NCBI GenBank assembly: GCA_021927905.1
Contig: BLLK01000029.1
Location: 62,001-126,000 of the forward strand
Source of the DNA: Chaetoceros tenuissimus
Lineage: Eukaryota > Bacillariophyta > Thalassiosirophyceae > Chaetocerotales > Chaetocerotaceae
Direction: 5' to 3'
Length of the DNA stretch: 64,000 nt
A program made the translations under genes and the position numbers. This document shows positions 2,900 through 36,835 of this stretch, piece after piece; position 1 is the stretch's first letter; every line of letters begins with the position of its first letter. The notes under the pieces were generated by a model. That model ran no database searches, was not told where the DNA came from, and saw nothing but the letters and a program-made list of their open reading frames with translations.

Positions 2900-3373
2900 T
2901 TTTAGGAAAAACCTGGTTTAATGTGAGGGGAGAGGAAGGGGGGAATGGCTCTTCTTTCCTTTCTTAGAACTCAAGAAGGATTCTAAGCAGTCGTGGAGAG
3001 AAAAAGAGCTGAAGAAGTCTCTCTGAGAAAGGAAATGTTCGGGTCTGTAAAAAACTCTCATGGGTAAAAGAGAGGCTGAAGTGTTCGAGTCTTTAAAAAA
3101 CTCTCTCTTTGAATCCTTCAACTTAGAACCTAGTGTTCGGTCTTCAATTGAACAGTCTTCAATTGAACAGTCATCAAAAGAACAGTCTTCAAAAGAACTT
3201 TCTCTTTGGAAGCCTTCAACTTGGAACCCTGTTGAAGTGTTCGGGTCATATGACTAAAAAGATCTAAGAAGACTCATCTCAACTTGATCAGTCGTAGGAA
3301 ATTTTCCAAACCCTTCCATTTTTCGGAACTTCCCAAATTCACCATCCTTTCAACAAAATATTCGGCGATCCCC
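2900..3373 (-). repeat. Shared 5' module upstream of the 3582 gene
   Basis: This copy contains gttgaagtgttcgggtcat, aactgatcagtcgtaggaaa-like sequence (here with ttgatcag) and acttcccaaattcaccatcc, ending at ttcggcgatcc. The same blocks occur in the same relative order at 19680-20035, 21895-22400 and 36165-36835. The strand given is that on which GACCCGAACACTTCAAC reads forward; the downstream gene is on the other strand. The same gene-relative orientation holds at three further copies. Confidence 0.65.
3141..3199 (+). repeat. Four 15-bp tandem repeats in the 5' module
   Basis: Units are tcttcaattgaacag twice, then tcatcaaaagaacag and tcttcaaaagaact. The inverse version (gttcttttgaagactg and variants) occurs at about 36570-36640. 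Copy number differs between modules, as expected of a minisatellite inside a dispersed repeat. Confidence 0.75.
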
Positions 3374-3581
3374 GAGGGAACTGAGGGTGTTTGGTGGTAA
3401 TTTTGATTCCGAAGACATTTTCTGGGAGAATATCTATTCAACAGAGACTAAACAACTAGGCAGGAGAATGATTAACTCCTCACTTTTGTCTGTGAAATTT
3501 CTGGTGTCACGAAAAGAAAGGGCTGTAATCTAAAAACAGTTGCCAGGGGTCCTCGAATAAAGCCTATATCTTACTTTCATC

Positions 3582-6153
3582 ATGACCAACTGTCTTTCTA
3601 GACTAATTATAACCACTCTTCTCTATTGCATCAGCATTCTTTCTTTTTTTCACAACAAAATTACTCAAGAAGAGTATGATACGAGGAAAGCGATCATGAA
3701 CCAACTGAAGAAAAGCTTTCAGTCTAGCCACTATGGAAAAGAGAAAAATCGACCCGATTCTACGAAAGTCATGATCGAATCAGTCAAGTCATATCAGACT
3801 ACTCGAAAATTAAACCAAGATGGAATGGAAGCAGATGATGAGCTTTCAAAATCCCAAAAAATCATCGGGAGCGCAGTAAAAAAATACATTCCAAACAATT
3901 TCAAAGACACAGATCAAAATAAAGATGGTGCGGATATTGACTCTCTTTGTGCATTTCTATTCTTTGGTTTGGGAAGAAGTTTTAAAGAGAAAGCGTTTCC
4001 AAGCATACACAAGTATTTGCTGCAGGTAAACCCTTCCTGTAAAGTTTTTGTGCATACATATGATGGAGCGAACGAAAAGGGGACCCATATCAATGCAAGG
4101 GAGCTTTCCCTACTAACTGATGACGCTTCAAGCATCATCTTCGAAACTGAGGAAGAATTTCGTTCCCAACATAATTTGACTCTTTTCCACAAATATTTCC
4201 CGACAAATGTAAATAGTAATAATTGGAAATTTCCAACAAGTATAGAGAACATGATACGTCAATGGCATTCTATTGAGAAGGTTTGGGAGTTGATGTTAAA
4301 TTTTGAGAACAATCGTCAGCTAAAGTTTCTTCGTATTGGCTTCTTCCGCCCTGATGTCATCTATACACATCCCATTTCGATTGTAGATCAAAATGAACCT
4401 GCAGTTATTCCGTCTATGATGTATTTCTCTCAACAGAATGGGTGGAATGGACTTAATGATCGGATGTTTTATGGAACTCGCAAATACGGTGAAGTTTGGG
4501 CAACACAGCGTTTTTGTAACATTGAAAATTACATTCAGTGGCAGCAAAGCGAAATAAGCCATATCCGACATGGTTTAAGAGGTCTGCATTCAGAGGATTT
4601 CATGAAATATATTTTGACAACGAAAGGACATCTTCCATTACAGATAAAAAATACCTGTTTTAAACGCGTTCGTTCCAATGGCGATGTACTTCATGGTGAC
4701 TGCAGATATTTGGAAACAAATAATGGTAATGAAAATGGCAAGACAGAGGTAGATCTTAGATTGAATACTGCCCCTGGCGTTATTGTTCTTGGAATGCAAA
4801 GATCTGGAACATCCCTACTTGCAGGTTCGCTATATCATACCTTTTCATGGAATGTACCAGGACAAGTATACCATAGTAGCAAATGCAACAATGTAAGATG
4901 TCGAAGCTCTTATCAGAATTTTCATGTTGTACAGCAGAACGAAGAATGGTTGAATTCTCAAAATATTAGCTGGGACAATCTTATGAGTGGCAATAGCCAG
5001 CTTGTAGCACGGACTTTTGACGCGAATCTAGCAACGAAAATCGGTATACATGGTCAGAAGGCATTGGATTTGTATAATAATGGTGCATACACCCCATGGC
5101 TAATGAATGATCCACGACTGTGCTTCACACTCGGTGCATGGATACCTTTACTCGAGTCCGAGTTCTACCCACCGCCTGTTATATTCATGTATCGCAACCC
5201 TCTTGAAATAGGATTGATTCGTGAAGCAAATGCACAAAATACCATGTCACTGTTGGAAAGCTTTTATTTGTGGATACTTTACAACAGAGAAGCAATCAGG
5301 CTTACTCAAGACATTGATATTTGTCGAATAGCAACAAGGTTAGAAACTTCTTTTTTCAGTCGATCCTATTTTTTCACGAATCTAATTTTTCCTCTTCTTT
5401 TATGAAGCCACGATGTTCTTACTAGAAAGCCAGAGCAAGAGCTACTTAGACTTCAAGATGAGTTGATGAGATGTGGGTTGCATCCTCGTAGTTTTAATCT
5501 GGATAAGATTACGGAAGAGCTTATACACAGATCCACGTCTGAAGAAAGGAATGATTTAAACAATGCGAGAGAAGAAGTCAGTCGAGGTAAAACATGCGAT
5601 TTTATTCCGTTTCAAAATACGGGTGCTGCATCGAGCAACGCATCCATTGCAGCACTGGAGTCAAAAATGTATGACATTACTATGAAAATATACTGCGACT
5701 TGAAGTCAAGCAAAGCATTCGAAAGAAGCTATTTGTGGCCAGATATGCCCCAAGTAATAAGGTATGAATCACTTACTTGTCATAGATTGATATTAAAGAT
5801 ATCGTTCTTCTTACACTATTTTACAAAGTGACGATACACAGTCTAGATATTCGAAAATGATAAGGAGGGAGAACTTAGTTAGTGAAGAAAGAAGTATGCC
5901 GAAGGGGCCTGCGTACAGTTGCCATTGGAAAGACTTTTCGAAGTATGAACGAGAAGCCGCAAAAGCATTGGGTTTTACAAAGAAAATGTGGGATAAAGGT
6001 GCATGGCCTGGAGGATTGGACTCAAAGTATTGGAATATGCTGGAGACGGGGGAACAGGCTGCTCTTGAAAGGTTAGGATACTTGCAAAGTACGTGGGATA
6101 TTACAATAACTAATGATGGAATGAACAAAAGATTTTTTCAAGAAGAATCATAG
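3582..6153 (+). CDS. Glycosyltransferase-like / sulfotransferase fusion, type II membrane
   Basis: I read exons 3582-5338, 5408-5761 and 5829-6153, with 69- and 67-bp GT-AG introns whose phases agree, giving about 811 aa. The ATG start is followed by a membrane anchor at residues 6-23 (SRLIITTLLYCISILSFF). Residues 120-370 form a nucleotide-sugar-transferase-like domain (LCAFLFFGLGRSF, CKVFVHTYDG, LRIGFFRPDVIY, VIPSMMYFS, LNDRMFYGTRKYGEVWA). The end of that domain resembles the second domain of the GT92-like genes at 7.9 and 37.5 kb. Residues 400-600 form a sulfotransferase domain with a P-loop for PAPS (GMQRSGTSLLAGSLYH) and a 3'-phosphate loop (FMYRNPLEIG). The last exon carries two copies of a W...AA..LG(F/Y)...WD repeat (YEREAAKALGFTKKMWD; EQAALERLGYLQSTWD). 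The likely role is coupled sugar transfer and sulfation in the Golgi; substrates are unknown. Confidence 0.75.
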
Positions 6154-6949: not shown

Positions 6950-7160
6950 GCAGTTTCACCCGACTGCCTTAGAAGAGGGAGAACTTTTCATGATGACCCG
7001 AACAGACCTTAGAGGAAAGAGAGAGAGAGAGGGAAAGAATTTTGAGATTTTTTGAAAATGACCCGAGGGCCCTTTCCAAGACTAAAGTTCAAGAGTTGAG
7101 AGCAAATTCTCAGCTGAGATAGAACTCTTCTTCCTTTTTCATACTGACATAATCATCTTG
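6950..7160 (+). repeat. Family B repeat, second copy
   Basis: This copy runs from tttcacccgactgccttaga through atgatgacccgaacag, a gagaga tract, and gacccgagggccctttcc. It matches 15795-15960 closely and partly matches 1-170; the 33640-33760 copy is inverted. It lies about 730-940 bp upstream of the GT92-like gene. Confidence 0.7.
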
Positions 7161-12931: not shown

Positions 12932-15492
12932 TTACTTTATTTCAAAGACCTTTTTCCAATCGATTTGTTTGCATATTTTTATTGCATTTGACTCATTTGT
13001 GAAAGTCAAGGGGTGCTTCCGACTTTGACAAAACTTATGGAAACATGGAACATTCGATCCATCCGGTAGCTTTACATTTGCAGAGCGCTGAAAGGGTATC
13101 TTGCTTTGTCCAAGTTTGGTGACAGTTATGTTTCTTTCGTCCACTATCCATTTCAGTAACATTTCACTGTTGCATCCACGCTTTCCACCTTTTGTCAGAT
13201 CATCTGGCAGTAGTTTCATGCAACCCTTGACATCTTTCTTCGATAGTTCTGAATAATAATTTCCAAATACGTCTGCAGTGTCACGTCGCGAAACTAGGAT
13301 ATGGTCATTTATTTCACTTGGTTGTAGAGGAGGATCCCTTGCATCACATGCAGGGATGAAAATGTCTCCACCTTTAGCTATAAGGTTGCGTATGTCAAAC
13401 TCTTTCAACCAGAGAGAGTCGTCACGAAGGAACATGACATAATCGTATTTAAAACCTTCTTCTTTTTCCCAGTTGGTGGCAGTTTTCCACAAACTCTGTA
13501 CAGCGAGGTGCAACCTCAAAAGATTCCTATTTGCATTTGCAGTCCTTTGCGATATAGCAGCGTTTCTATTGTCAATGATAGGAAATCTTGAGTCTGGATC
13601 TTCGTCTGGGTTCTCTTCTAGGGCTCTTTCTCTTCTAGCGATAAGCATTGGCTCAGAATCTATATCAATAGATTCCTGCAAATACACGGCACCTACAGAC
13701 GAGGCCAGACTGGCAATTTTGGTTCGTATATATTCCTCTATGTCAACAAAATCTTCGACAGAAGAAGAAGGTAGTGTGGGATCTGGCTGAAGGCGGTCTG
13801 TGTATCCTGAGTCTGATCTGTAAGCTTTCATTCGAGCGGTGCTTAGTGACACATAATAGTCAACGGATGCTCTTTTTTTCATAGGTTTTATCAAATTTTT
13901 CAGAGCAGAATCAAAAATGAACCTATTCAAAGTACCCGCTACAATCACAGCAACTCTCAGCTGTGTTGACGTTGTAGTGGTCGTTGGTGTAGTCTCGTTG
14001 TCCTTGATCATTTCCTCATCAATATGCGTGTTGGAACTTGCTATACAACGAGAAAAGCTTCTATAGTACCAATGGCAGCCTCTCTTTGCAATGTGTAACA
14101 TAGGTCTTTGCTTTTCATTAATATATATGCGGTCGCGATATTCTTGACCAGAAACTTGCATATGAGGAGAAAGCCTCAACCCTGAGCTTGCTAGTACATG
14201 TGGAAATGAAATCTGATCTCGGTCGGAGAAGCAGTGTATTTCATTGAGCCATGAACACCCAAAATCTCCATTAAATTTTCGGCAGGTTGAATTACGCATA
14301 TCATAAACGATGAAGGCACTATCAACAAGTGGATGCTGATTGTAAAATACCTGACTCGACTGTAGTGCTTCATTACTATGCAATCCCTCGTAGTGTTGAC
14401 ACTGGAGTCGTAGAGTTTCGAGATCATCAGATACAGTAGGTCTCTTCTCAGCAGCAGCAATAATAGCCTCGCAATGAGCTTTAAAATTGACTGTTGAGGA
14501 GTCTCCAACAGAAGCTTTATCAGGAGGCAATCCCATGTAGCTTGAGCAAACACCATGGCGACCAACGGTACGATTGAAGTGTAGTAAGTAATCGCTTGGT
14601 AAACCACGGGGCGAAGGCATATTGCCATGATTCGATTGAAGAAGTTTAGCATCCTGCCAAATCACTCTATCAGCCCAAGGGAAGAGTAGACCAGGATTAA
14701 GCTTCAAGATTTTGTATTCCGACGATCGCTCTTGTATGGCATTCTAGATGGGTCAATCACAACGAGCCGCTGGGAACCTTCTGCTGATAGAAGGTCTCCC
14801 GTATGATCAACATCAGTCACAAATTGGAAAAAGCAAGTTCCATGACGTCGAACCACTTTGATACTATGGTCACCAAGAAAATTTGATGATCGCATCCATT
14901 GCTCATATTTGCTTCCAAGAGCAGCTCCGTAAACTACTAATTCTTTGCACTTGCTTGCAAACTTCTTTGCAATATCTTCTTGCAATTCTCTCAAATATTC
15001 CGCATTGTCTCCACAAAGCCCACAAGTGCGCTTATAGGAAGCAGAACTGAAAATAGAGCGATGTGGATCCTTCATACATGTACCATCTAATATCCAGGGA
15101 ACGTTCTTCTCTGGTGAATGGCATTGTATTCTCGGTTCCAATCCTACAGCTTGTCTCAAGAGTGTTGGTTTAGATACATTTCGAGACACCATGCTTTTCA
15201 TATCATGCTCCTTACTCTCTGTATGATTGCTACTGGAAGAAGAGTAATCATACAAACGTTGCTTTTGAAGCAAGTTGAAATGAACTTCTCTGCTGGAAAA
15301 TACATGCTGTCGCTGATTCTCAATCGACATATTGTCCTTGTCTGGAGCTTTGATAATGTTTGCACTGACAATCTTTAGGTCTAAGGCGATAGAAATGTTG
15401 AGAATAATTGTTAGGAACAAAAGGAGTAACATTCCCAATAGGATCAATTCAATTTTCTTCATCTTTCGCTTCTTCATCTTTCGTATCTTCAT
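12932..15492 (-). CDS. DUF616-type putative glycosyltransferase with a second GT-like domain; one-base frameshift
   Basis: Transcribed right to left. The ATG at 15492 gives a lysine-rich tail and an anchor at residues 15-36 (LILLGMLLLLFLTIILNISI). The middle matches the DUF616 family (TOD1/MUCI70-type putative glycosyltransferases): VVRRHGTCFFQFVTDVD, DPSRMPYKSDRRNTK, then LLFPWADRVIWQDAK and DRDQISFPHVLASSG. The family motif is split between two frames at 14704-14713. Adding one base at the T4 run 14710-14713 (AAAA in the sense strand) joins them into about 853 aa. After residue 500 comes a second domain (VAVIVAGTLNRFIF, YDYVMFLRDDSLWL, FIPACDARDPP, GCNSEMLLKWIV). It is either a functional gene with an assembly error or a very young pseudogene. 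A truncated copy of its 3' third is at 24986-25785, and its 5' end is copied at 35.8-36.1 kb. Confidence 0.75.
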
Positions 15493-15544
15493 ATTTGATT
15501 TGAAATGAGAGGAGGCATTGTTGTGCGTCTTAGAGAAGAAGAAG

Positions 15545-15960
15545 TATAAATTCTGTTCGAGGGAAAAGTTTGATTTGGCGATTACTTGTACGTATTTTTC
15601 CTATTGGAAAATGTCAAGATCTTGGAACATACGAGCGAATATTTACGTGATTTGGTAGCTTGGGTAGGAGACGTTTTCTTTCTCAAAAGGGGGGCATCAA
15701 TAAGACCTTGAATCAAAATGTCAAGATCTAGATCAGGATCGCCGAATTTTGAATGGGCTGGGGGAATTGTCACTTTTTGGAAAATGGAGAAATGTCTCGG
15801 TTTCACCCGACTGCCTTAGAAGAGGGAGAATTTTTCATGATGACCCGAACAGGCCCTTTAGAGGAGATAGAGAGAGGGAAAGAATTTTGAGATCTTTATA
15901 AAATGACCCGAGGGCCCTTTCCAAGACTGAAGTTCAAGAGTTCATGATTCTCTCAGAGGC
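15545..15960 (+). repeat. Upstream module of the DUF616 gene plus a family B copy
   Basis: 15545-15765 shares aaaagtttgatttggcgatta, tacgtatttttcct and aggatcgccgaat with the flank of the chimeric pseudogene at 36165-36410. 15795-15960 is a family B copy nearly identical to 6950-7110. Both lie directly upstream of the minus-strand gene that starts at 15492. Up to 16100 there are further short forms of the ACCCGAACACTTCAACC motif. Confidence 0.65.
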
Positions 15961-16150
15961 TTCTCCCTTCTTGAACCCTGATCAGAAGAGGGTCTTTCTG
16001 TACTAATGACCTGAACACTTCAACCATTTCTTCTTCCCAAGAGATTACCTTTTTCTCCTCAGAGAATCAGAGTTTTTTAAAGACCCGAGCACGTCAACCC
16101 TTTCTTTTTCCTTTTTCCCAAGTTAGAACCCTTCCAGGGAAGGAGAACGA

Positions 16151-16552
16151 ATGCAATTCTCTGAAAAAGAGATAGAAAAGGTCTCCCTGACGTCATCTTT
16201 GGACTCCAATGCTAGCTCGTCATTGGATTCTTATGAATATCCATCTGATCCAACCATTTTGTCCATCAAACTTTTCCGAAGTTCTCACCTATATATTGAA
16301 AGAGATGCTGACATGCACTATAGAAATGGTTTGACAGTGAAGGATCCCATCAACAATCAGACTGTATTACTTGTCCACAGTGGTAGAAGCCACAAACCTG
16401 GCGAAAAGATTGTAGGAATGTTACGAATGGTTTGTCCTACATTTCATAGAGACGCAGTTTGGCCATCACAGATGCATCCATCGAAACAGGTTTGGGAATA
16501 TACCTACAACACATTGAAAAAAGACGTCTATAATAGAGCGCTTTACAATTAA
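16151..16552 (+). CDS. Hypothetical ORF inside a cassette remnant
   Basis: A 133-codon ORF with no domain I recognise. Its first part covers the CRE-containing block (TGACGTCA at 16188) that is promoter DNA in front of the two GT92-like genes, so at least the N-terminal part is probably not protein. The later part (from about 16250) is repeated, with frame-breaking changes, at 33890-34190, and coding-like sequence continues past the stop in another frame. I read it as the remains of a gene of unknown type caught between a family B copy and a family A copy. Confidence 0.25.
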   Translation: MQFSEKEIEKVSLTSSLDSNASSSLDSYEYPSDPTILSIKLFRSSHLYIERDADMHYRNGLTVKDPINNQTVLLVHSGRSHKPGEKIVGMLRMVCPTFHRDAVWPSQMHPSKQVWEYTYNTLKKDVYNRALYN

Positions 16553-19591: not shown

Positions 19592-19679
19592 TTTTGGTGA
19601 ATTGCAATCAATACTGTAGAACAGGTAATTTAATCCGATAAAAATGCGTAAATGAGAGAAATGGTCAGTTTATTTTGAC

Positions 19680-21788: not shown

Positions 21789-21894
21789 TTTTTTATTTGA
21801 AAGTCTTGCAGAGATGGAAAAAGGGAATTATGGAGTAAAATTGTGTACTTACTCATAGGCCCATTTTGTCAACCGATTTTCAGGTCTAATTTAA

Positions 21895-22400
21895 AAAACT
21901 CTCTCATGGGTAAAAGAAAGGCTTGGAATAGGTTGAAGTGTTCGGGTCTTTAAAAAGTTCTCTCTTTGAATCCTTCAACTTAGAACCCTGTTGAAGTGTT
22001 CGGGTCATTAGACTAAAAAGATCTGACGAAGAAAGGTTGAAGTGTTCGTGTCTTTTAATTTTTTTCTCTTGAATTTTTCGGGTCTTCAAAAGAATAGTCT
22101 TCAAAAGAACATGCTTCAAAAGAACTTTCTCTTGGAAGCCTTCAACTTAGAACCTCCGGTCATTAGACTAAAATGATCTAAGAAGACTTATCTGAACTGA
22201 TCAGTCGTAGGAAATTTCCTTTTCGGAACTTCCCAACTTCACCATCCTTTTCATCAACTATTCGGCGATACTATTCTAGATCTGGACATTTTGATGATTC
22301 AACTTCATCTTCTTGGAGCTCCTCACGAAAAAAAACGGTGAATGGTCAACGGTCTGCCCTCCATCCCAAACAATTGGTTTCTACATATTGTAGTACCTCG
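21895..22400 (-). repeat. Shared 5' module between the GT17-like and PC-esterase-like genes
   Basis: This is the inverse of the 36250-36835 module. It has actctctcatgggtaaaag, gaagtgttcgggtcttt, gatcagtcgtaggaaat, ggaacttcccaacttcacc, attcggcgata, tggagctcctc, gtctgccctccatccc and ttggtttctac. Relative to the plus-strand gene it has the same orientation as the modules of the 3582, 19591 and 36094 genes. Because it sits between divergent genes it could serve both. Confidence 0.75.
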
Positions 22401-22570: not shown

Positions 22571-23971
22571 ATGGTATTATCTAATAGATACGTATTTACC
22601 AATCATGGCAATCCTCAACATGAGAGACAAGCCAACAACAGGATTAAAAGTTCAGCAAGAACAAGTGTTGCAGGTTTATCGAAAGGAAGAAGGATCTTCC
22701 TAGTTGTAGCCGTACTCATATTTGTGTTCGACGCTGGTGGCCAGGGGAGATTTAAGATGAAGATAGATCATCAAGAAATACAAAGGGAGGGAAATTCAAA
22801 TACAACTTCAAATAATAACCGTAATGATGCAGAGAAAAGAGCAGACCTACCAGAACTAGATCGGAAAATGCAACCTGAACTAAGGAAGAAAGTTAACAAA
22901 GCATCCCTCAAAATTCACCTCAAGTTGGAAAAGACAGATCCGATTTTGGTAGATGAAGACACTAATTCTGGAAAAATCAGTGAATTGGAATTTTATGCCA
23001 CCATCCACCATTCAGAATTCCCTGCCGAAAAAGCTGGAGAGTGGATTTACAAACCCGATGCTCGAGCTATTAGCCCTTCAAAGGAACATTTACATTGCCT
23101 CGATCAAGAACGTCAGGGAAATTGTCATGATCCAGATGCATGGAAAAATACCAATGACACAGCAAAACTGAGTAGATACAACTCGATGGCAGCAAAGGCA
23201 ATTGCAAACAGCCCCGGAATTCTTGCCGGTGACGATCCTTGGATGTGGCAATCAAAATTGCCGCAATATCGTGTCTTATTATTTAAGGATCGTGATTTTT
23301 ACGCAAAACAGGTTGGAAAAGCTCTTCGTAATAGGAAGATCTACCTCGTTGGAGACAGTCTCACTAGGCAGTGGAGTCAGTCAATGCGATGTGAACTTAT
23401 ACACGTACTCGGTATGTCACCGGAGGAAGCGAATAAGAAAGTTAGATATGTACAGGTGCACAATGGTGTCAGAGACATTAGAAAAAACACATTTGATCAA
23501 ACGAAAGAGCGAGACGTCGTCGTTTTCAACATCGGACATCATGTCGGATTCAAGATAGGTTCAAATTGGACAACACTTTACAGGGAGAAACTAGAGCAAG
23601 TGTTGACATTTTCTTTCGGCAACATTCCTGATAGCAACAAATTCTTTCGAACCACAAGTGTTCGACATTATATCAGAGGTGCCGGCGACTGGGATTCGGA
23701 ATCATCCAAGGCTGGAAGAGTTGAACCTTCAATGCGAGAAAAGTGGTCAACATATGGTGGATCAAGACCTGAACAACCGATGCAGAATTTAATTGCATTC
23801 GAAGTGTTCCTTCAAAATAATTCAACTCGCCGATTCCAGATTCTTGACACCTCACCAATGATGTTAGCGAGAGCTGATTCAACCTTTGACGGGTGTCACT
23901 TTTGCTTACCTGGCCCCCTCGAATACTGGAGCCGTATGCTATACCATAGGCTTTACTACAGCAACACGTAG
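22571..23971 (+). CDS. PC-esterase / glycan O-acetyltransferase-like type II protein
   Basis: 466 aa from the ATG at 22571; the frame is open further upstream, but only with non-ATG codons. The anchor is at about residues 39-55 (RRIFLVVAVLIFVFDAGG). The C-terminal half has the features of the PC-esterase fold (trichome-birefringence-like and NXPE/CASD1-type proteins, within the GDSL superfamily): the nucleophile motif YLVGDSLTRQW, a central VVVFNIGHHVG block, and the catalytic D..H motif in DGCHFCLPGPLEYWSRML. Members acetylate cell-wall or surface polysaccharides in the Golgi. The motifs are intact, so I expect an active enzyme. No intron is needed. Confidence 0.78.
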   Translation: MVLSNRYVFTNHGNPQHERQANNRIKSSARTSVAGLSKGRRIFLVVAVLIFVFDAGGQGRFKMKIDHQEIQREGNSNTTSNNNRNDAEKRADLPELDRKMQPELRKKVNKASLKIHLKLEKTDPILVDEDTNSGKISELEFYATIHHSEFPAEKAGEWIYKPDARAISPSKEHLHCLDQERQGNCHDPDAWKNTNDTAKLSRYNSMAAKAIANSPGILAGDDPWMWQSKLPQYRVLLFKDRDFYAKQVGKALRNRKIYLVGDSLTRQWSQSMRCELIHVLGMSPEEANKKVRYVQVHNGVRDIRKNTFDQTKERDVVVFNIGHHVGFKIGSNWTTLYREKLEQVLTFSFGNIPDSNKFFRTTSVRHYIRGAGDWDSESSKAGRVEPSMREKWSTYGGSRPEQPMQNLIAFEVFLQNNSTRRFQILDTSPMMLARADSTFDGCHFCLPGPLEYWSRMLYHRLYYSNT

Positions 23972-26486: not shown

Positions 26487-27416
26487 TTAGTGTAAATGGC
26501 CAAAATCAACTTGAACATTTCTCTGAAGTTTATTACAAAAAGCATGTTTATCAAACTTTTGTAGGTTGAATCCAAGTCCAGCCCGGACATTGTCATGAGA
26601 TTTTTTGCAATCTCCTTTCTGAGCCCACTTCAAACGGGCCTCGGCAGCATTATCTGTCAGATGACTTTTCGGAAAACGGCTGTATAAAACAGTTCGCGTC
26701 AAACTATCTTCCACAGCAGACAAATTCATTGCCCCACACATATGATAGTCAATTCTTCCCTCTACATTGAAGTCGAGGGCGAAGGAACAACCAACAATCT
26801 GGGCACGCATAAATTTGCTCATCTGAGATCCACAGCATTGCCTCAAAATTGACCAATATCTCATATATTGCCTCAGCTGAAACTCTTCATCTCTGGTGAG
26901 GTTGAATATTACTTGGTATCGGGAAATTTCACATAGCGGGCAAGATGTGAATTCAGCATATCTCTGAGTGTAGGCAACCATCCCTCCCGACCAAGAAAAC
27001 CCCTCTTGCTTCAAGTCTGTATTACTGCTATTAACGGTAGTAAATAGCATCTTTGAGGGACCCAGGGAGAGTTTCAGTGGTGGGTGATGTTTGAGAAGCG
27101 AAATGTTGCGGGCTTGGTCTGAGCCGCGTAGATTAGCTATGAGGCCTAAAAGAGTCCTTTGAAACGTACTCCCCGTTCTTGGGATTCCAACAGTATGAAT
27201 AATCCTCACGTCCTGGTTGAAAAGTACTGTTCCCTCATTAGTTTCCTCTTGCCCACTGCAATTGAAAGGCGACGCCTCAAGCTCCGACTGGTTCTTGTTT
27301 GCAACTGTAACGTTTCCCTCCACTGACACTGAGTACCACCTGACACACTCAAGCAAGAAAAATACAGCAGCAAATAGCATTAAGTTACGCCCCTGTTCGT
27401 GCACAAGACGAGACAT
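26487..27416 (-). CDS. Sulfotransferase-like type II membrane protein
   Basis: Single exon, 309 aa, ATG at 27416. The anchor is at about residues 10-25 (NLMLFAAVFFLLECVRWY). RIIHTVGIPRTGSTFQRTLL is a P-loop of the kind that binds the 5'-phosphosulfate of PAPS in sulfotransferases. Further on, FNLTRDEEFQLRQYMRYW and several Cys residues suggest a luminal, disulfide-bonded fold. I do not see a clear 3'-phosphate loop (RxPxE or similar), so the call rests on the P-loop and topology. A distant P-loop protein with another role remains possible. Confidence 0.6.
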   Translation of the reverse strand: MSRLVHEQGRNLMLFAAVFFLLECVRWYSVSVEGNVTVANKNQSELEASPFNCSGQEETNEGTVLFNQDVRIIHTVGIPRTGSTFQRTLLGLIANLRGSDQARNISLLKHHPPLKLSLGPSKMLFTTVNSSNTDLKQEGFSWSGGMVAYTQRYAEFTSCPLCEISRYQVIFNLTRDEEFQLRQYMRYWSILRQCCGSQMSKFMRAQIVGCSFALDFNVEGRIDYHMCGAMNLSAVEDSLTRTVLYSRFPKSHLTDNAAEARLKWAQKGDCKKSHDNVRAGLGFNLQKFDKHAFCNKLQRNVQVDFGHLH

Positions 27417-28067
27417 GAGAGCCGATTTTATTTTTGAAGTTTATCCTGGCAGCCTGGCAGAGTAACGCAAGAGCTGGTACCGAAAAGTGGGCCAAGAAAA
27501 AAATTTCCTCTTCCCTGGAAGGATTCTATCTTGGGAAAAATAAATGGTTGGAGTTCTCGGGTCTTTCAAAAAACTCTGATTCTTCTCTGAGGAGCAAAAT
27601 CTCTTGGGAAAAAGAAATGGTCGAAGTGTTCCGGTCATTAATAGAAAGATCGGCAAAATTTCCATGCTTGTAGGTCGCAAGAAAAGGGAAGAGGAGAGGG
27701 AAAGAAAAAGAGAAAAAGCGTCGCAGACGAAAGAGGAAAAAGGAGAAAGAAAGGAAAGAATTTTCATCTGTCATTGTTCGATCAAGCCATCTCTTTGATC
27801 GATTTCTTATGAATAGAAACAAAATGAAAATAGCTAAAGATTCACAAAGTAAACTATTAACTTTATGAAGTATTGTCATTCGAGAGAGCAATAAATCTCA
27901 CATTTTTGAGTGTCGCATATATTCTTCCATTTTGAATTTCTTTGCTGCGTAGTACCAGGTTCTGTGATATAAGCAGTTGTACTGGTGCGAGGAATTGATA
28001 TATCCCCTGCATTCACAGGGTTACTATATTCATCATTTTAGGCAAATTTTGCTGAATGTTTGGAAAT
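27417..28067. other. Intergenic with partial 5' module and a purine tract
   Basis: 27545-27640 contains ctcgggtctttcaaaaaac and gaagtgttccggtcatta, short relatives of the 5' module, upstream of the sulfotransferase-like gene and in the opposite gene-relative orientation. 27676-27758 is an almost pure A/G tract. The rest, up to the target duplication of the retroelement, holds nothing I recognise. Confidence 0.5.
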
Positions 28068-28072: not shown

Positions 28073-28250
28073 TGTTGTAGACTAGTGAATTTGTTGAGGT
28101 AATTGCTACTAAGTAATTAGCGAAATAAATGAACTAGTTACACAGATGAGATCAAGAGAGCAACGGAAATGCTGAATCTTGAGTAATCGGTAAATAGCTT
28201 GCCATGTATGCGGCTAGGTTGCTAGCCAGTTGGAGCTGGCGTTTATAACA
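28073..28250 (-). repeat. 3' LTR (178 bp)
   Basis: Identical by eye to 33296-33473. On the minus strand it begins TGTTATAAACGCC and ends CTACAACA. The last 99 coding bases of pol lie inside it, so this LTR doubles as coding sequence. Confidence 0.95.
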
Positions 28251-31200
28251 CACCCTCGCTAGGCGCGTATGTGGAAGTTGTTTACGGATTGAAGGCCATT
28301 GCTGGTCAATCATTGCATTGATGCGTTGCAAATATTTGTATCTCATCTTCTGGTGCACTGCTGGATGGTGATGTTTTGTAAAATAATCAGCTAAATTTTC
28401 TATACCCTTTCTCCAAATCAGTTTGAACTGCTTTTGTTGAATTCGATCTTCGAGCCAATGGTATCTCATGTCCCATGCTTTTGCTCGTTTTGGTTTCATA
28501 AGTTTTGTTAGGAGGCCATGAGAAGAAGCATTGTCTGTGACTAAAGGTGTTCCATCGTCAGGTTGGGGGTGGTCTAAAAATTCAAGATCATTTCGCATTG
28601 GTACACCATTCTGTGCATTGTTATACAATCCACCTGTTTCAGACTCGGCAGAGGAGCTCGCAACTGGATCAAGTTTTTTGCATTCGACGAGGACAGCACC
28701 GTTGAGTGGTGGGTCCTCACCATCTCGTACATTGTTGCTTAAAAAATAATATCCAGCAATTCGACTGCGTGCTTTTGGAAGCACGAGGTAAGCGGCATCA
28801 GAGTGGATATATAAAATCATGTCGCTACGTTTGAATCGAATGACAGCATCAGGATATGTTGCCACATAGTCCAATAATTGCATGGCTAATTTTTTGGTAG
28901 TTTCTGTTGGCTTGGATTGTTGATAAGACAATGTATTCAATGCCGGAAGCAATGTGGAATCAAGAGCTCGTGCGTAGTATAGTAATGAACCAACGATAGC
29001 TTGTATTTCTCGCGTTGCAGCCTTGGATAGCAAAGGACTTTCGTCCGGTGCGTCCGCATATTGAATTTTTGCACCATATCGAATTTCTCGATATGGGTGT
29101 GGACAGTGTTGGGGTCGCTTTGGATCTGGGTGTTGGAACTTGTGACGAACATGATTAATGTATCCCTTCATCCACAGGTCGACATAGCCTTCGTCGTAAT
29201 GCCAGTCTAACGTCAGCCCAAGAAACTCATTTCCTGACCAGTCATATTGAATCGGATACTGTTGCTGTAGTACGTCCAGCAGATGTTGCACTTGTTTTTT
29301 ACATGTATATTTCACACCAAAATCATCCACACATAATGCAAAGTACACTTTTTTGGATTCATGTTTCCATAAACCTGGGTTGGTTCTGGAGGGAGCATAT
29401 CCATGAGGACGTAAATATTCGACAAGTCTGTCATATGCAATACGTGCAGCTTGCTTTAAGCCATACATACCCTTACGAATTTCAACATAGACATAACCAT
29501 TGTAAATTTTTTCTTTCAAATTGTATTTTTCCATGATGTCTTCAGGAATCCATCGTACCAGAATCCGTGCATATTCATATCGCTGCATAGGATTATTTAG
29601 GAAAAAATCTTTTATATCGATGGACATGAATCTTGCGTTGTCGGTGGAAATGGTGCTGTTGAAAATTAATTTGGCATCTGTCAATCCCGCTGCTGGAGAA
29701 CTTGCATCAAAAGGGTACGGTAATTTATCTCCCCCCACCGTTAATCGAACTCGATGTGGATCATCTTGTTTGGGTCTGTAATCACAAACAGGATTGAGAT
29801 AGGTTGCTATTCTTCCGACTGGGACTTGATCTTTGTGTATGAAGACCATGGTCTGTGTACCTTTTATGTCACGGATACCTTCAGTGAGACGACCTAACTC
29901 ATTGGAAAGAGATCGATTCCAGATGTCATGAAATTTTCCAGCAAGGAGTGTGTCCAATGTTTCCTTTTTTCCAGTAATTTCATTGAAAATATGATGCACT
30001 GTTGGCATAAAAAACATATCAGATGGATCAGATGGTTGTTCCTGAAGGAGATGGACAAGTGCATTTTGCCTTGAAAATTTATTTCTGGTGTTGTAGCGAT
30101 GCAGGCGTTGAGATGGAGTACAATCGTCATCTTGTGTAATGGGAATTGGTGTTGGCTGTTGCGTTGGACTAACAGATGGCTGTGGAGAACGTTGAGACTC
30201 CACCCTCGGAACTTGTGCCGGATGTTGAGTTGAACCCTCCTGTGGAAGTGGGGTTGGTGACACCACCCTCGGAACTTGTGCAGGGGATGATGGTTCGACC
30301 CTCTCGTCGGGGGTGGATGGAGTTGGAACGTTCTCTGTGGGAACACTGTCAGTAGGAATGTGCACCTTCGGTTGTTTGGCTGCACGATGCAATAGTTCTG
30401 CAAGTTTGGTTACTGCGGCAGTTGTGAGCTGCGAGTAATCAAGAGCTGGCATAGCCGGCGTCGGATCCTTCAGTAATTCTAGCATGTCTAAGGCTGATTT
30501 TAGAAGGAGAGATTCTTTGGACGACTTTGGGATCGGTACCCTATTCGGGAAATATTGCACAGTATCTACCTGTATTTCGCGTTGTGTGTCCGGAAGAAAA
30601 ATAGTAACACAACGGTAGTGTTCTGGTGCAGGTCCTACATACCACGCCTCTTTGCCTCTTGTGCCAAAGGTGGATCGTTGATCAGGCTTGACATGGTACA
30701 CAAGCTTGGTTCCGAGGGGAGCTAATGGAGATCTGTTGAAATCATAAATTCCTTCAAGTGCAGCATAGGCCGATAATTTTGGATTGACTCTGGCTGCTCG
30801 CAGATGGTTCAAGCTAAGGAGAGTCTGAGGAAGGAGACGATCCCACTCAGATAGAGGGAAATCAGGATCGACCAAACAGAGAATTGTTATGAAGTGATTT
30901 TTGAATGTTTGAATCGCACGCTCGGCTGCATTACGCCTTTTTTGATGTGGAGGTACCAATTGAAATTTAATTTTGTGTTTGTGAAAAGCAGCCTTGAGCA
31001 GGGCACTGCATTCGTTATCCAAAATGTGCAGCTTGGGAGTAAAACCTCCGGTTGTCAATTTATCTAGCATTTTGATAGTGGCGTCACGGATGGTTGCAGC
31101 TTGTCGGTTTGGAATTGCTTCGGCTAGAATAGCATTTGCATCGTAGTCATAGATCACAACAATATATTCATTGCCTCGGCTAGATGGAATGGGAAAACGA

Positions 31201-31703
31201 CCAGTCAGGTCAGAATAGGATTTTCCATTCAATTCGTCGTACTTTTCGATGGTAACAAAGCATTCATGAGTTCTTTCTGTCTCTTGTTCTGGTAAAAAAT
31301 CAGTATCAGTTTGTGAAGTCGACCTGAGCCCCTGTTTTTCTTGTGCTATATGACCTTTGGCTGTATAGATTTTTGGATCAAGATGTTTTGAGATCAATTC
31401 GGTGGTCAGACCGGGCCAGTTGGTGAAGAATCCTTTCCGAAGTGCATTGAGAAATGTTGTTTTTACTGGGCCACCAAGCACTCCATGATAAAATGATGCG
31501 AGTTCCTTTTTTGACTGTTGGAGATCTATTAAAACATTCGCAGATGGTTGGTTTTGGAGAAGCTTCGACTGATCAAACGGAACATCCCACAGTCCATCCT
31601 TTCTATTTCGTAGTCCTTTAATCAATAATTTTCCATTTTTGAAAATTTGTAAATCATTTTTGGTAAATACAGCAGTACAATCATCGTCACACAGTTGTCC
31701 CAT
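28152..31703 (-). CDS. Copia pol: integrase, reverse transcriptase, RNase H
   Basis: 1183 codons from the first ATG; translation more likely enters from the protease. Residues 100-130 keep the TAKGHIAQEKQGLRS block seen before copia integrases. The integrase core has SDLTGRFPIP, IYDYDAN, ILDNECS and NAAERAIQTFK (D, D, E). The RT has FMSIDIKDFFL, RKGMYGLKQAAR and LCVDDFG (VDD catalytic pair). The RNase H has YIHSDAAYLV, SSSAESETGGLYNN, LVTDNASS and ADYFTKHHHPAVH. No stop interrupts this frame. A Pro/Thr/Gln-rich hinge lies near residues 450-530. The stop codon falls inside the 3' LTR. Confidence 0.93.
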   Translation of the reverse strand: MGQLCDDDCTAVFTKNDLQIFKNGKLLIKGLRNRKDGLWDVPFDQSKLLQNQPSANVLIDLQQSKKELASFYHGVLGGPVKTTFLNALRKGFFTNWPGLTTELISKHLDPKIYTAKGHIAQEKQGLRSTSQTDTDFLPEQETERTHECFVTIEKYDELNGKSYSDLTGRFPIPSSRGNEYIVVIYDYDANAILAEAIPNRQAATIRDATIKMLDKLTTGGFTPKLHILDNECSALLKAAFHKHKIKFQLVPPHQKRRNAAERAIQTFKNHFITILCLVDPDFPLSEWDRLLPQTLLSLNHLRAARVNPKLSAYAALEGIYDFNRSPLAPLGTKLVYHVKPDQRSTFGTRGKEAWYVGPAPEHYRCVTIFLPDTQREIQVDTVQYFPNRVPIPKSSKESLLLKSALDMLELLKDPTPAMPALDYSQLTTAAVTKLAELLHRAAKQPKVHIPTDSVPTENVPTPSTPDERVEPSSPAQVPRVVSPTPLPQEGSTQHPAQVPRVESQRSPQPSVSPTQQPTPIPITQDDDCTPSQRLHRYNTRNKFSRQNALVHLLQEQPSDPSDMFFMPTVHHIFNEITGKKETLDTLLAGKFHDIWNRSLSNELGRLTEGIRDIKGTQTMVFIHKDQVPVGRIATYLNPVCDYRPKQDDPHRVRLTVGGDKLPYPFDASSPAAGLTDAKLIFNSTISTDNARFMSIDIKDFFLNNPMQRYEYARILVRWIPEDIMEKYNLKEKIYNGYVYVEIRKGMYGLKQAARIAYDRLVEYLRPHGYAPSRTNPGLWKHESKKVYFALCVDDFGVKYTCKKQVQHLLDVLQQQYPIQYDWSGNEFLGLTLDWHYDEGYVDLWMKGYINHVRHKFQHPDPKRPQHCPHPYREIRYGAKIQYADAPDESPLLSKAATREIQAIVGSLLYYARALDSTLLPALNTLSYQQSKPTETTKKLAMQLLDYVATYPDAVIRFKRSDMILYIHSDAAYLVLPKARSRIAGYYFLSNNVRDGEDPPLNGAVLVECKKLDPVASSSAESETGGLYNNAQNGVPMRNDLEFLDHPQPDDGTPLVTDNASSHGLLTKLMKPKRAKAWDMRYHWLEDRIQQKQFKLIWRKGIENLADYFTKHHHPAVHQKMRYKYLQRINAMIDQQWPSIRKQLPHTRLARVCYKRQLQLASNLAAYMASYLPITQDSAFPLLS

Positions 31704-31723
31704 TGATAAAAGCGATGCACTCG

Positions 31724-32020
31724 TTAGTTCTGGAAAAACATGGGCTTGTTTTGCTTCCTCTGAGAGACCGTCAAAGGGAGATTGCCATTTTTGTTCGGTT
31801 CAATTCTGATACCTGTTGGAGTTCCGACTGCTGGACCAGTTGTGGTTTGCTGTAAATTGTGTAATTTTTCCGCATGTGTCTCCATCAGGTATGTGCCAGA
31901 TGCACCAGAGTCTGCTTTCATTACATCAGTTCCTTGTAAAATATTTTCTATTGAGGGTGGGACTGCAGGAATACAAATATTATTTATTTTATCAGTATTG
32001 ATTATTCCGGTCCCACCTCG
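31724..32020 (-). CDS. Copia aspartic protease segment
   Basis: Follows the gag stop in the same frame. It includes ADSGASGTYL (the D-S/T-G active site). After NGNLPL the frame needed for the next conserved stretch (LSEEAKQAHVFPEL, leading to SLLSMGQLC) is one base back, between about 31755 and 31785. The segment has no start codon of its own before the active site that would make sense, so it depends on passing the gag stop. Confidence 0.8.
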   Translation of the reverse strand, partial: RGGTGIINTDKINNICIPAVPPSIENILQGTDVMKADSGASGTYLMETHAEKLHNLQQTTTGPAVGTPTGIRIEPNKNGNLPLTVSQRKQNKPMFFQN

Positions 32021-33277
32021 TCAAGAGCATCCAAATGTACTTCCACCCATTTTATTTGCCATGGTTGCTTCATCCTTGTGGTCAGGGCATTTATTTCTGC
32101 ACCCTGGAGAATCATGATTGCAGCGTCCGTGAGTGTAGCAGTATTTATTGAAGTGAGCAGGAATTGGTCGACTTGGTTGGCCTTGTCTTGGTCCAGTCAT
32201 AGGCTGTGGAGGTCTACGAGGACGACGTACATTTGCCTGCAATGCATCGATAGCTGCACGAAGTTGCTGGATCTCTGCTGCTTGTGCAGCATGGAAAGCA
32301 GAATGATCTTGTGTTGGTGGAGCTGGAGCTGGAGCAAGTGCTGGTGGAGCTGGAGCAGGTGCTGGTGGAGCTGGAGTAGGTGCTGGTGGGTTTTGATGCT
32401 GTTCAAGGAGCATGTTCATGAGTTGCATCATTAGTTGATGATCATCAGCTGTAGGAGTGTGGAACATTTGTCCAGCTGGTGTTTCCTCGAGGACTTGTTC
32501 CAAATCATTTTGTTGTTGTAGAAAAAATTGCTTGAAGGCAATCCAGGTCGGTTGCTGTTGTCTTGCATTCCAAGCCATAACAGCCTGCTGAAAACTTGTA
32601 TTTTTCTGAATAGCTTGTTTGGCGATTGCAATAACTTGAAATTCGGTCAATGGGACTCCTGCAGCCGTAGCACGAGGAACGTGCTCGTCAATTTTTGTAA
32701 AAAAATCAGTGAGAGTGGTGTGGACTTGGACTGGGTATTTTGTGAGTGCAGCTTGTTCTTCAACAACAGTGGAATATTTTACCTGGCCATATGTTTGTAG
32801 TAACCAAGTCATAGTGTCGTGGAGAGGGCCCGTAAGCACGCCAGTAATATTATTTAGTCGTTGATTCAAATAAATTCTCTCAATAACTTCAGTCAATTGT
32901 TTTTTTAATGCTTGTTCCACTGCAACAGCTTCGTTGTATCTTCGCCATTGTTCGGTATGCACTCTGTCTGCAGCCGAGATTTGATGTTGGGTAGCAGCTG
33001 GAGGGTACACAGGATCCACTGGTGGTAATCCTGGCATTTGGAACGGGACATTACTGAGGAGCGCGTAGTCAGCTGGGGACACTACAAGTCCTGAATAGCC
33101 ATGTTGTCCTCCACCAAGCGTTGTATGGATTGTGGCAGCATTTTGGACAAGAAGTTTCCGTAGGTCGGTGAGTTGGTTAAAAATTGGTTTTCCACGGATT
33201 GGGATCAGTTTTCCATTTTCTAGTGTGTTTGGAAAAATTGTGCAGTAGTCAACTGCTTTTGTGCCTTCGTTCGGCAT
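32021..33277 (-). CDS. Copia gag (nucleocapsid)
   Basis: 418 codons. The ATG at 33277 lies only 18 bases inside the 5' LTR. A Pro/Ala tract (PAPTPAPPAPAPAPP) precedes a basic region (RRPRRPPQP) and a C-terminal Cys/His cluster (YCYTHGRCNHDSPGC), which is the likely zinc knuckle. The frame ends with TGA followed by C. The same frame stays open for another 98 codons into the protease, which is the layout used by elements that read through the gag stop. Confidence 0.88.
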   Translation of the reverse strand: MPNEGTKAVDYCTIFPNTLENGKLIPIRGKPIFNQLTDLRKLLVQNAATIHTTLGGGQHGYSGLVVSPADYALLSNVPFQMPGLPPVDPVYPPAATQHQISAADRVHTEQWRRYNEAVAVEQALKKQLTEVIERIYLNQRLNNITGVLTGPLHDTMTWLLQTYGQVKYSTVVEEQAALTKYPVQVHTTLTDFFTKIDEHVPRATAAGVPLTEFQVIAIAKQAIQKNTSFQQAVMAWNARQQQPTWIAFKQFFLQQQNDLEQVLEETPAGQMFHTPTADDHQLMMQLMNMLLEQHQNPPAPTPAPPAPAPAPPALAPAPAPPTQDHSAFHAAQAAEIQQLRAAIDALQANVRRPRRPPQPMTGPRQGQPSRPIPAHFNKYCYTHGRCNHDSPGCRNKCPDHKDEATMANKMGGSTFGCS

Positions 33278-33295
33278 TATTCTCGCAATTACTTA

Positions 33296-33473
33296 TGTTG
33301 TAGACTAGTGAATTTGTTGAGGTAATTGCTACTAAGTAATTAGCGAAATAAATGAACTAGTTACACAGATGAGATCAAGAGAGCAACGGAAATGCTGAAT
33401 CTTGAGTAATCGGTAAATAGCTTGCCATGTATGCGGCTAGGTTGCTAGCCAGTTGGAGCTGGCGTTTATAACA
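33296..33473 (-). repeat. 5' LTR (178 bp)
   Basis: Identical by eye to the 3' LTR. It would hold the promoter for the minus-strand transcript. The right flank ataag matches the base pairs left of the other LTR. Confidence 0.95.
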
Positions 33474-33478: not shown

Positions 33479-34312
33479 GTGTGGAGTTCCTAGCTTTGGT
33501 CGACTCTAAAGGGACTTCTTGCACTTCTGGACTCTAATGTCACTTTGAGTAAAAATGGGACGAACCGGCACCAAGTGCCCCGCGTAAAATCTATTAGAGT
33601 CAAGCCAACAAATATGGCGCCCTCGCCGAAAGATCCTCTTCTGATCAGGGTTCAAGAAGGGAGAAGCCTCTGAGAGAATCATGAACTTTTGAACTCCAGT
33701 CTTGGAAAGGGCCCTCGGGTCATTTTAAAAGATCTCAAGATTCTTTCCCTCTCTCTCTTCACCAAAGGCCTATGAGGAAAAAGAACAAATGGAATTCTCT
33801 GAAAAAGAGATAAAAAAGGTCTCCCTGACGTCATCTTTGGACTCCAATGCTAGCTCGTTATTGGATTCTTATGAATATGCCATCTGATCCAACTCTTGAG
33901 TCCATCTATATTTTCCGAAGTTCTTACTATGTTGAAAGAGATGCTGACATGCACTGTAGAAATGGACAGTGAAGGATCCCATCAACAATCAGACTGTATT
34001 ACTTGTCCACAGTGGTGGAAGGCACAAACCTGGTGAAAAGATTGTAGGGATGATACGTAATGGTTTGTCCTACATTTCATAGAGACGCAGTTTGGCCATC
34101 ACAGATGCATCCATCGAGACAGCTTTAGGAATATACCTACAACACATTGAAAAAGACGTCTATAACAGAGCGCTTTACAATTAACCTGAAGGACCAAGAT
34201 TTACAAAATCTCATGTCATTGGATCAAGTGAAAGAAAGATATTAACAGCACGACTCTGGAATTAGGTTTCAACCTCAAGGTGTTGGAGCCGACATCCCAT
34301 TCAAGCAGAAGC
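33479..34312. repeat. Composite remnant: inverted family B plus copy of the 16.15-kb ORF region
   Basis: 33640-33770 is family B in inverted orientation (compare 15840-15960). 33780-34312 matches 16140-16700, with the CRE-like TGACGTCA at 33826-33833, but with indels that destroy the reading frame. 33479-33640 holds nothing I recognise. Together with the family A copy that follows, the order matches that at 15.8-18.25 kb. Confidence 0.7.
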
Positions 34313-34964: not shown

Positions 34965-35018
34965 TGTTATATATATATAAGTATATATATATAAGTATAT
35001 AAGTATATATATATACGA
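34965..35018. repeat. AT-rich microsatellite
   Basis: Imperfect (tata)n with aag interruptions (tatatatataagtatatata). It marks the boundary between the repeat copy and the next gene remnant. Confidence 0.85.
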
Positions 35019-35178
35019 AAGAATCATAAAGTAGTTTCTTTCACATTCACATTTTATATTTCATTAAAACTAATCCCATCATAAATAGACAATGTTTAGT
35101 CAATTGGGCTTTTAGAAAACTTCATAAATCCACTGTCACTGCAAGTTTCAAAAAGTTGATCATCCATGTGATCGATTA

Positions 35179-36094
35179 TTATTCATTGTATTGAATGAAT
35201 GTATCACATGACCATATGCGATGTACACCGCCAGAAATTTCAAAAAGCTTTGGTTGGATGACTTTGTCAACAAGATCATTCTCCGCAACTGTACATGTTT
35301 CTTTGCAAAAATTCAAACTTTTGAGAAGTTTCGTGAGATCTCCCTCCACAGAATCTTTTCATGACTTGTTTGATTGCTGCTACTAGCCTGCTTGTCTCTT
35401 CTCTATGAATGTAGAAAATGGAACTATCTCTCGAAGCGCCTTTGAGTAATGATTCAATTCTCTTTCTAGGCCATATATGTCCAATGATGATTGGGTGAGA
35501 ATTTTTTCCCTATCATCCTCAGGAGTTGGTGAGATTCCATTTTGAAAATTAGTAGTTCCCCCATAACATTGTCTTGCAAACGCCCTCATTGCCGTTCCTC
35601 CAGCTTTTTGAGACATGACAATGAAAATTTGGTCTTTCTTATCAATGCTTGTTTTGACCTCATTTTCTTTGAAGTACATTTCATTTTCATCCTTGGTTTG
35701 ATTACGACTGAAAGTGTTTCCAGTATGCTGTTGAATATTTGCTAGTTGACTATCCTCGAGACCATAACAAAAAGTTGTTCTGTTAGAAGGACTACTTTTA
35801 CATTTTGAAACACCATGCTTTTCATATCATGCTCCCTACTCTCCGTATGATTTCTACTAGAAGAAGAAGTATAGATCCGTTGCTGTGGAAGTAAGTCGAA
35901 ATGAGCTTCTCTAGAAAATACATGCTGTCGCTGATTCTTCATCGAATATTCTCCTTCTCTGTAGCTTTGATAATGTTGGCATTGACAATCTTTAGGTCTA
36001 AGGCGATAGAAATGTTGAGAATAATTGTTATTAACAAAAGGAGCAACATTCCCAATAGGATCAATTCAATTTTCTTCATCTTTCGCTTCTTCAT
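35179..36094 (-). pseudogene. Chimeric remnant: DUF616-gene 5' end fused to a sulfotransferase-like domain
   Basis: Read on the minus strand from ATG 36094, the first about 300 bases copy the start of the DUF616 gene (tail, anchor IELILLGMLLLL, then NQRQHVF and NHTESREHDMKSMV). The copied reading frame breaks after the anchor. From about 35800 the sequence is different: a frame encoding QIFIVMSQKAGGTAMRAFARQ, a sulfotransferase-type P-loop, runs to 35383. A further frame-shifted segment (SLNFCKETCTVAENDLVDK) ends at 35179. It is a recombinant of two gene types that has since decayed, or whose frames are joined by introns I cannot place. Confidence 0.6.
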
Positions 36095-36164
36095 CTTGCT
36101 TTAGCGTCTTCATATTTGGAATGAATATATGAATTGTTATCATAGATTAGAAGAAGAAGTATAA

Positions 36165-36835
36165 AATCCTATTCGAGGGAAAAGTTTGATTTGGCGATTA
36201 CTCGTACGTATTTTTCCTAAGTACGAGTATTGGAAACTTCAAGATTTTGGATACTGTACGAGTATTTACGTACGTAGAAACCAATTCATCATCAAGATTT
36301 GGATGGAGGGCAGACCGTTGCAGTTTAACGTTTTATCGGGAGGAGCTCCAGGAAAAAGAAGAAGTTGAATAATCATCAAAATGGAGAATAGGATCGCCGA
36401 ATATTTTGTTGAAAAGGATGGTGAACTTTGGAAGTTCCAGAAAAATGGAAGGGTTTAGAAATTTCCTACGACTGATCAGTTGAGATAAGTCTTCTTAGAT
36501 CTTTTTAGTCTAATGACCCGAACACTTCATCAAGATTCTAAGTTGGAGGCTTCCAAAGAGAAAGTTCTTTTGAAGACTGTTCTTTTGGAGACCGTTCTTT
36601 TGGAGACTGTTCTTTTGAAGACCGATTCTTTTAGAAGACACTAATATTCAACCTTTCTTCGTCAGACATTTTTAGTCTAATGACCCGAACACTTCAACAG
36701 GCTTCTAAGTTGAAGGATTCCAAGAGAAGAGTTTTATAAAGACTCGAACACTTCAACCTGTTCCAAGCCTTTCTTTTACCCATGAGAGAATTTTTTAAAA
36801 GACCCGAACATTTGTTTTTCCTTCTCGGAGAGACT
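36165..36835 (+). repeat. Shared 5' module upstream of the chimeric remnant (longest copy)
   Basis: In order: cgagtatttacgtacgtaga, ggagggcagaccgtt, gagctcc, aatcatcaaaatgg, ggatcgccgaatattttgtt, tggtgaactttggaagttcc, cctacgactgatcag, gatctttttagtctaatgac, cgaacacttcaacagg and a gttcttttg(a/g)aga minisatellite. It precedes the minus-strand remnant in the usual gene-relative orientation and also lies 680-1350 bp upstream of the plus-strand GT92-like paralogue. Confidence 0.78.

Follow-up and report, generated by a model that had tools for sequence, protein, structure and literature searches.

The window analysed here is a 64,000-nt stretch of the genome of the diatom Chaetoceros tenuissimus (C21:62001-126000). 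It carries several copies of a module of ordered sequence blocks, which an earlier note on this DNA had placed in front of Golgi-enzyme genes. Searches of the genome (41.03 Mb, 68 contigs) show that these copies form a sequence family that is confined to two islands of glycan-modifying genes and has been exchanged between genes. The family has two forms, type A and a diverged type B. Module coordinates without a contig prefix are window positions, and F numbers denote gene families. The modules of the window and the genes beside them are as follows.

2842-3371, plus strand: type A module 1, core at 3243-3265; sharing stops abruptly 3' after ATTCGGCGATC(C)
3582-5405, plus strand: gene F02, downstream of module 1; 607 amino acids with an N-terminal anchor and, towards the C-terminus, a weak Sulfotransfer_3 match that stays under the Pfam cut-off
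15560-16240, minus strand: type B module, whose 3' end is the partial copy previously noted at 15.5-15.8 kb
12935-15558, minus strand: gene F01, on the downstream side of the type B module; a TOD1/MUCI70-like glycosyltransferase copy with an interrupted frame
19679-20025, minus strand: type A module 2, core at 19892-19914
18468-19591, minus strand: gene F07, on the downstream side of module 2; a short anchor exon (putative exon structure) precedes a 306-amino-acid open frame, no Pfam family
21876-22387, plus strand: type A module 3, with two core units, at 22002 and 22157
22571-23971, plus strand: gene F08, on the downstream side of module 3; member of the PC-esterase family with a type II anchor
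20766-21788, minus strand: glycosyltransferase family 17 (GT17) gene, divergent, upstream of module 3
36271-36913, minus strand: type A module 4, with two core units, at 36497 and 36664
35386-36197, minus strand: broken relic on the downstream side of module 4, consisting of an F01-type anchor and, after it, another coding fragment (147-amino-acid open frame)
37515-40699, plus strand: divergent gene on the upstream side of module 4, with a putative signal-peptide exon ahead of a 975-amino-acid frame that has a sub-threshold Glyco_tranf_2_4 match
6953-7097, minus strand: type B fragment, not placed at a gene start in module orientation
27510-27649, plus strand: type B fragment, reversed relative to the adjoining gene at 26490-27440
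33628-33878, no strand assigned: broken type B fragments adjoining a Copia-like element

A mismatch-tolerant search (one to three mismatches, scaled by block length) recovered all seven blocks in the window where they had been reported, at four fuller sites and one partial site. Only the 36-kb copy contains all seven; the 3-kb copy is missing the last two, the 19.7-kb copy actgatcagtcg... and ggatcgccgaatatt, and the 22-kb copy cgagtatttacg.... The window copies were also detected as repeats of 56-148 nt with 82-95% identity. The partial copy, given as 15545-15765, is real and is better described as the 3' end of a diverged type B module of ~680 bp, besides which the window holds at least three type B fragments. 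All four fuller copies turn the same module end towards a gene start, or towards the broken relic in the case of the 36.2-kb copy; at 22 and 36 kb the opposite end faces a divergent gene. Comparison by blastp of ten proteins from both module sides found them unrelated, as had been claimed, save for a weak match between F01 and F02 (18% identity, E = 0.002). The observation that the core genes at 42-64 kb lack the module holds, because the profile search found no window copy beyond 36.8 kb.

Genome-wide, the 23-nt core GGGTCATTAGACTAAAAAGATCT was searched for with up to three mismatches and with the reversed sequence as control. It matched 20 times against none in the control, exclusively on C21, C24, C34 and C60, all four of which carry glycan-gene islands; 19 of the matches lie inside type A modules and one inside a type B piece. 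A 35-nt block gave 15 matches, again with none in the control, and these two results exclude a chance origin. For a 17-mer the counts were 70 and 9, and the five of the 70 that fall outside the island contigs (on C16, C48 and C54, each with two mismatches) look like background. Combining the 35-nt pattern with a profile search (E ≤ 1e-3, over 320 kb including the window; the type A profile was built from 14 copies, among them the C24 copy, which was cut 100 bases off its position) gave, by our count, 27 modules, 15 of type A and 12 of type B. This C24 copy was placed at 18966 in the comparisons of downstream genes and shared limits and at 18866 in the later ones.

Each type A module contains one or more GTTGAAGTGTTCGGGTC-GGTCATTAGACTAAAAA units in module orientation, followed in some copies by a run of 15-nt repeats. 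Further 3' come the block ACTGATCAGTCGTAGGAAAT (in most copies), GGAACTTCC, ATTCGGCGAT and, in some copies, CTAGATCTGGACATTTTGAT. The shared sequence starts near -440 and ends between about +130 and +260 relative to the core, and alignments against the F02 modules end at +126 to +135. Several type A copies retain a broken anchor of the TOD1/MUCI70-like family. The whole type B module of ~680 bp recurs complete at other genes of the F01 family. Every one of the 12 type B segments extending to the query's 5' end has TGACGTCA there, for example at window position 16188, and the same motif occurs upstream of the long F02 genes. It is CRE-like (cAMP response element), a kind of sequence known as a CO2/cAMP element in diatoms. 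Rfam covariance models gave no structured-RNA match in window positions 1-42000 at gathering scores, the core had no exact match in viral_contigs, which speaks against a viral origin, and the spacing of GGAACTTCC does not fit the consensus of a heat-shock element.

To describe the neighbours of the modules, we counted open frames of at least 140 amino acids starting within 700 bp; 20,000 random intergenic points gave a null expectation of 20.6% per side. Type B has a start on its downstream side in 11 of 12 cases (binomial P = 2.7e-7), comprising ten F01 (TOD1/MUCI70-like) copies or fragments and one unrelated anchored protein (C60:46029-47744); its upstream side, with starts in 3 of 12, is at chance. 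For type A, outward-facing starts lie upstream of 8 of the 15 modules (binomial P = 0.005), the partners being F10 (twice), F11 (Gly_transf_sug), GT17, a nucleotide-sugar transporter, the PC-esterase F08, a UAA transporter and one transposase frame. Downstream starts number six, belonging to F01 (with two stops in frame), three copies of F02, F08 and F21. F07, present in two copies under type A, fails the frame rule owing to its short first exon; the families downstream of type A are F01, F02, F07, F08 and F21. With both sides pooled, starts occupy 14 of 30 sides (binomial P = 0.0012), on both sides of 4 modules and on at least one side of 10. The earlier note had asked for this kind of genome-wide survey, with the next gene compared against random positions, and the core hits proved to lie on island contigs throughout.

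The same survey limits the claim of a fixed orientation to the four window copies. Module orientation is not fixed genome-wide, since F08 sits at opposite module ends in different loci: in C21 it is found on the module's 3' side, whereas in C34 (88% protein identity to C21) the module stands upstream of the gene in reverse orientation with the gene at its 5' end, and in C60 (90%) a fragment of the module's 5' part adjoins the gene, also reversed. The proposal that the module is a promoter or a 5' untranslated region (UTR) of glycan genes fares better in its first half. Modules of both types adjoin gene starts; a UTR is less likely than a promoter because ATGs occur between the core and the assumed start codon in five of six leaders examined, and these ATGs, together with the upstream partner genes, weaken a one-way 5' UTR. 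On these grounds type A looks more like a bidirectional intergenic promoter. The genes themselves look functional as judged by the ratio of nonsynonymous to synonymous divergence (dN/dS), which is 0.18-0.33 for F02 and F08 and about 0.40 for F01 (nine of ten extracted copies). Predicted structures of F02 and F01 were too poor to use (mean predicted local distance difference test scores of 28.0 and 29.4), and a search of solved structures with F02 gave no match up to E = 0.1.

The two islands hold members of the glycosyltransferase, methyltransferase, epimerase and sugar-transport classes together with duplications and rearranged contigs. They also contain an FkbM methyltransferase, a GDP-mannose dehydratase/epimerase-type enzyme, an O-fucosyltransferase-type frame and protein-kinase frames. 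Matches to F01 and F08 (E ≤ 0.001) and to F07 occur on island contigs only. F02 has three close copies on island contigs and distant relatives (27-37% identity) on C48, C38, C14, C58 and C54, contigs with no core match. The TOD1/MUCI70-like genes form a mosaic array (C21:1-54000, C34:1198354-1247211, C24, C60 and C12) with ten near-full stop-free frames, an eleventh with one stop, and many fragments; they have no match elsewhere in the genome at E ≤ 0.001.

Several rearrangements were observed alongside the modules. C21:14042-21090 and C34:1185332-1198920 share a duplication that falls into three pieces (99.4-99.9% identity) and is interrupted by ~7 kb in C34; the two are more alike than expected for alleles at the mean heterozygosity of 1.56% stated in the genome paper (PMC8613185). 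In C60, 5156-9183 and 29042-33056 form a 4-kb inverted repeat (97.8%) that carries a UAA-type transporter; a type A module lies within about 0.5 and 1.3 kb after the arms, and only one of the two leads into F02. Three tandem 1225-bp units at C34:1206513-1210187 are 99.6-99.8% identical, with frames of 397-424 amino acids. In the window, a 1031-bp unit is repeated in tandem about four times, 100% identical, at 45632-49758 beside an HSF gene. The Copia-like long terminal repeat (LTR) element at 28073-33473 is on the minus strand and has identical 178-nt LTRs; stretches matching it in C60 and C12 are 99.8-99.9% alike and therefore recent or, in C12, allelic.

Trees and local alignments were used to follow the modules between genes. 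In the tree of trimmed modules (14 of 15 type A copies; C34:1195552, a duplicate of C21:17373, was excluded from the tests) the three F02 modules do not fall together. Forcing their monophyly costs a delta logL of 53-54 and is rejected by the approximately unbiased (AU) test, with p-AU values of 5e-8, 1e-5 and 2e-68 in three runs that were numerically unstable and all rejecting. An untrimmed tree, which joined two F02 modules with a support of 100, included gene-specific sequence beyond the shared limit, and the trimmed tree was used instead. The F02 module of C60 is 98.4% identical to the modules before the broken relics at C21:17373 and C21:98497, versus 92.7% and 84.8% to the other F02 modules; silent divergence (dS) among the F02 genes is 0.135-0.161. 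The DNA upstream of F02 is a mosaic, almost identical from -400 to -200 and about 50-66% alike nearer the core when C21 is compared with the others. C12 and C21 show no mismatch over 1.6 kb (seven gap columns) spanning the upstream half of a type B module, and from inside that module onward their identity falls to 94-97%. An exchange of modules between genes is supported both by the module tree, which is incompatible with the gene tree, and by the change of identity within a type B module.

Considering these results, we favour, with a probability of roughly 0.58, the reading that the modules are intergenic promoter regions of one family, often acting in both directions, which co-regulate genes and have been copied between them within the two islands. 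These regions of ~0.5-0.7 kb would be proper to the glycan-modifying islands. Type B would be the resident 5' region of the expanded TOD1/MUCI70-like family, and type A a related form that now stands at the 5' ends of unrelated Golgi-type genes, sometimes between divergent pairs. Type A would most likely start transcription one or both ways and so tie the genes to one signal, with segmental duplication, inversion and gene conversion presumably spreading the module from gene to gene and keeping the copies alike. Promoter activity, two-way activity and co-regulation are what we infer from the arrangement of the sequences.

Several findings weigh against this reading. Starts on the predicted downstream side of type A, taken alone, are not significant (6 of 15, P = 0.068), and the binomial tests overstate independence because the copies are related by duplication. 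Type A leads into broken or truncated F01-type anchors at C21:17373 (where the relic lies beyond an extra 0.85 kb), C21:98497, C24:18866 and C34:1212718. No gene is visible downstream at C24:14507 and C60:27686, and C34:1195552, the duplicate of C21:17373, is severed from its gene. The F01 copy under type A (C21:45642) has two stops in frame, the upstream partner of C34:1350065 is the transposase frame, and orphan type B fragments exist. The label of Golgi enzyme for F10, F07, F21 and the C60 gene rests on N-terminal anchors because they belong to no Pfam family. Lastly, the modules show no clear extra conservation: between C21 and C24 the module is 93-99.7% identical and the neighbouring gene 87-98.7%.

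Many of the same findings would suit a passive origin, in which the modules are duplicated intergenic DNA of an unstable, repeat-rich region that hitch-hikes without a regulatory role. The islands are full of duplicated blocks, many of them 90-99.9% identical, and the broken or absent downstream genes and the orphan fragments also speak for it. However, genes of at least five unrelated families have the same module ahead of their start codons, its limits stop short of the coding sequence, and open-frame starts face type A above expectation with both sides pooled. We regard passive copying as possible, at about one chance in four.

The module might instead serve mainly to supply homology for swapping glycan genes, much like a junction element, which the earlier note had offered as a conserved recombination arm. 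The main aligned F02 block begins at the core (-15 or -4), with only further pieces shared upstream, and both the conflict between module and gene trees and the identity switch within a type B module accord with this idea. Endpoints of large duplicated blocks were also counted (444 of 496, four tandem-repeat zones being set aside). In 15 type B intervals they number 56 where 12.4 would be expected, a count that none of 2000 rotations reached, although this enrichment may reflect no more than the unit length of the F01 array. The type A modules are not preferred ends, with 13 endpoints against 10.8 expected (P = 0.32), and no recombinase turned up, although no search was aimed at recombinases. 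Exchange between genes is supported and a dedicated arm is not, and we consider a primary role in recombination unlikely.

A slightly less likely explanation still is that C12, C24 and C60 are alternative haplotypes and that joins within repeats have created false neighbours. Long stretches of C21 are matched by C12 and C24, and the genome paper, besides its heterozygosity of 1.56%, has MaSuRCA and HaploMerger2 among its references (PMC8613185). Yet C21 is distinct from the 4.46-Mb C34, because an 8-kb stretch of C21 core genes has a single match, which rules out C21 as a mere haplotype of C34, and unrelated neighbours are already seen when only the four window copies and the four on C34 are considered. 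Finally, a non-autonomous transposon or part of a retroelement is highly improbable, for although the module is repeated, has short internal repeats and shares the window with a Copia-like element, four genome searches gave no copies outside the island contigs, the module lacks fixed ends because aligned limits vary by pair (target-site duplications were not searched for), and no frame of at least 140 amino acids overlaps the type A cores, so that the ordinary transposon body the earlier note had allowed for is rejected.

Bidirectional promoters link divergent, functionally linked genes of one broad pathway, with less than ~1 kb between their starts. The diatom module resembles them where, as in some copies, it lies between divergent starts less than ~1 kb apart, at genes of one broad pathway. 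Unlike ordinary bidirectional promoters, it is found again with the same sequence between other gene pairs, and in front of single genes as well. If the favoured reading is true, this would be a clear example of unrelated genes of one pathway coming to share promoters through exchange. To our knowledge, the genes that build and vary diatom surface glycans are poorly known, and the module, as a sequence tag, offers a direct route to listing such genes and asking whether they are switched together. We found no description of it among the listed titles and abstract openings on C. tenuissimus or on diatom glycosyltransferases, sulfotransferases, sulfated polysaccharides or bidirectional promoters. 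Neither glycosyltransferase nor sulfotransferase occurs in the main text of the genome paper (PMC8613185), and five glycan terms have no occurrence in that of the C. tenuissimus infection transcriptome paper (PMC12305248).

Many genes with one 5' element in common, and exchange close to that end, recall the upstream conserved sequence and conserved recombination junction element (CRJE) of the Pneumocystis msg genes. As described, that system uses a single-copy promoter for one surface-protein family, expresses one gene at a time and is subtelomeric (PMC10622565). The diatom module, in contrast, exists in 27 copies and serves unrelated enzyme families, and this copy number rejects an expression site with one promoter copy and many silent genes. 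No telomere repeats were found in the stretches searched.

The closest parallel we found is the small outlier chromosome (chromosome 19) of Ostreococcus tauri, the "viral immunity chromosome", which is described as unstable, rich in glycosyltransferases, methyltransferases, epimerase/dehydratases and sugar transporters, and provided with inverted repeats and transposons (PMC5082852). The C. tenuissimus islands hold members of all those gene classes. They differ from chromosome 19, as described, in being two islands within ordinary diatom contigs, with sulfotransferase-like and PC-esterase genes, and in being defined by a shared 5' module. The tag raises the question of whether diatoms too, in the manner of Ostreococcus, maintain an unstable glycan locus as a defence against viruses. 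By analogy, and quite tentatively, the islands could be a diatom counterpart of the viral-immunity chromosome built around a portable two-way promoter cassette that passes between the genes of transferases, transporters and acyl- or sulfo-modifying enzymes and co-regulates them, a proposal we consider somewhat less probable than passive copying. If it were true, the surface glycan would be switchable as a set and quickly re-assorted.

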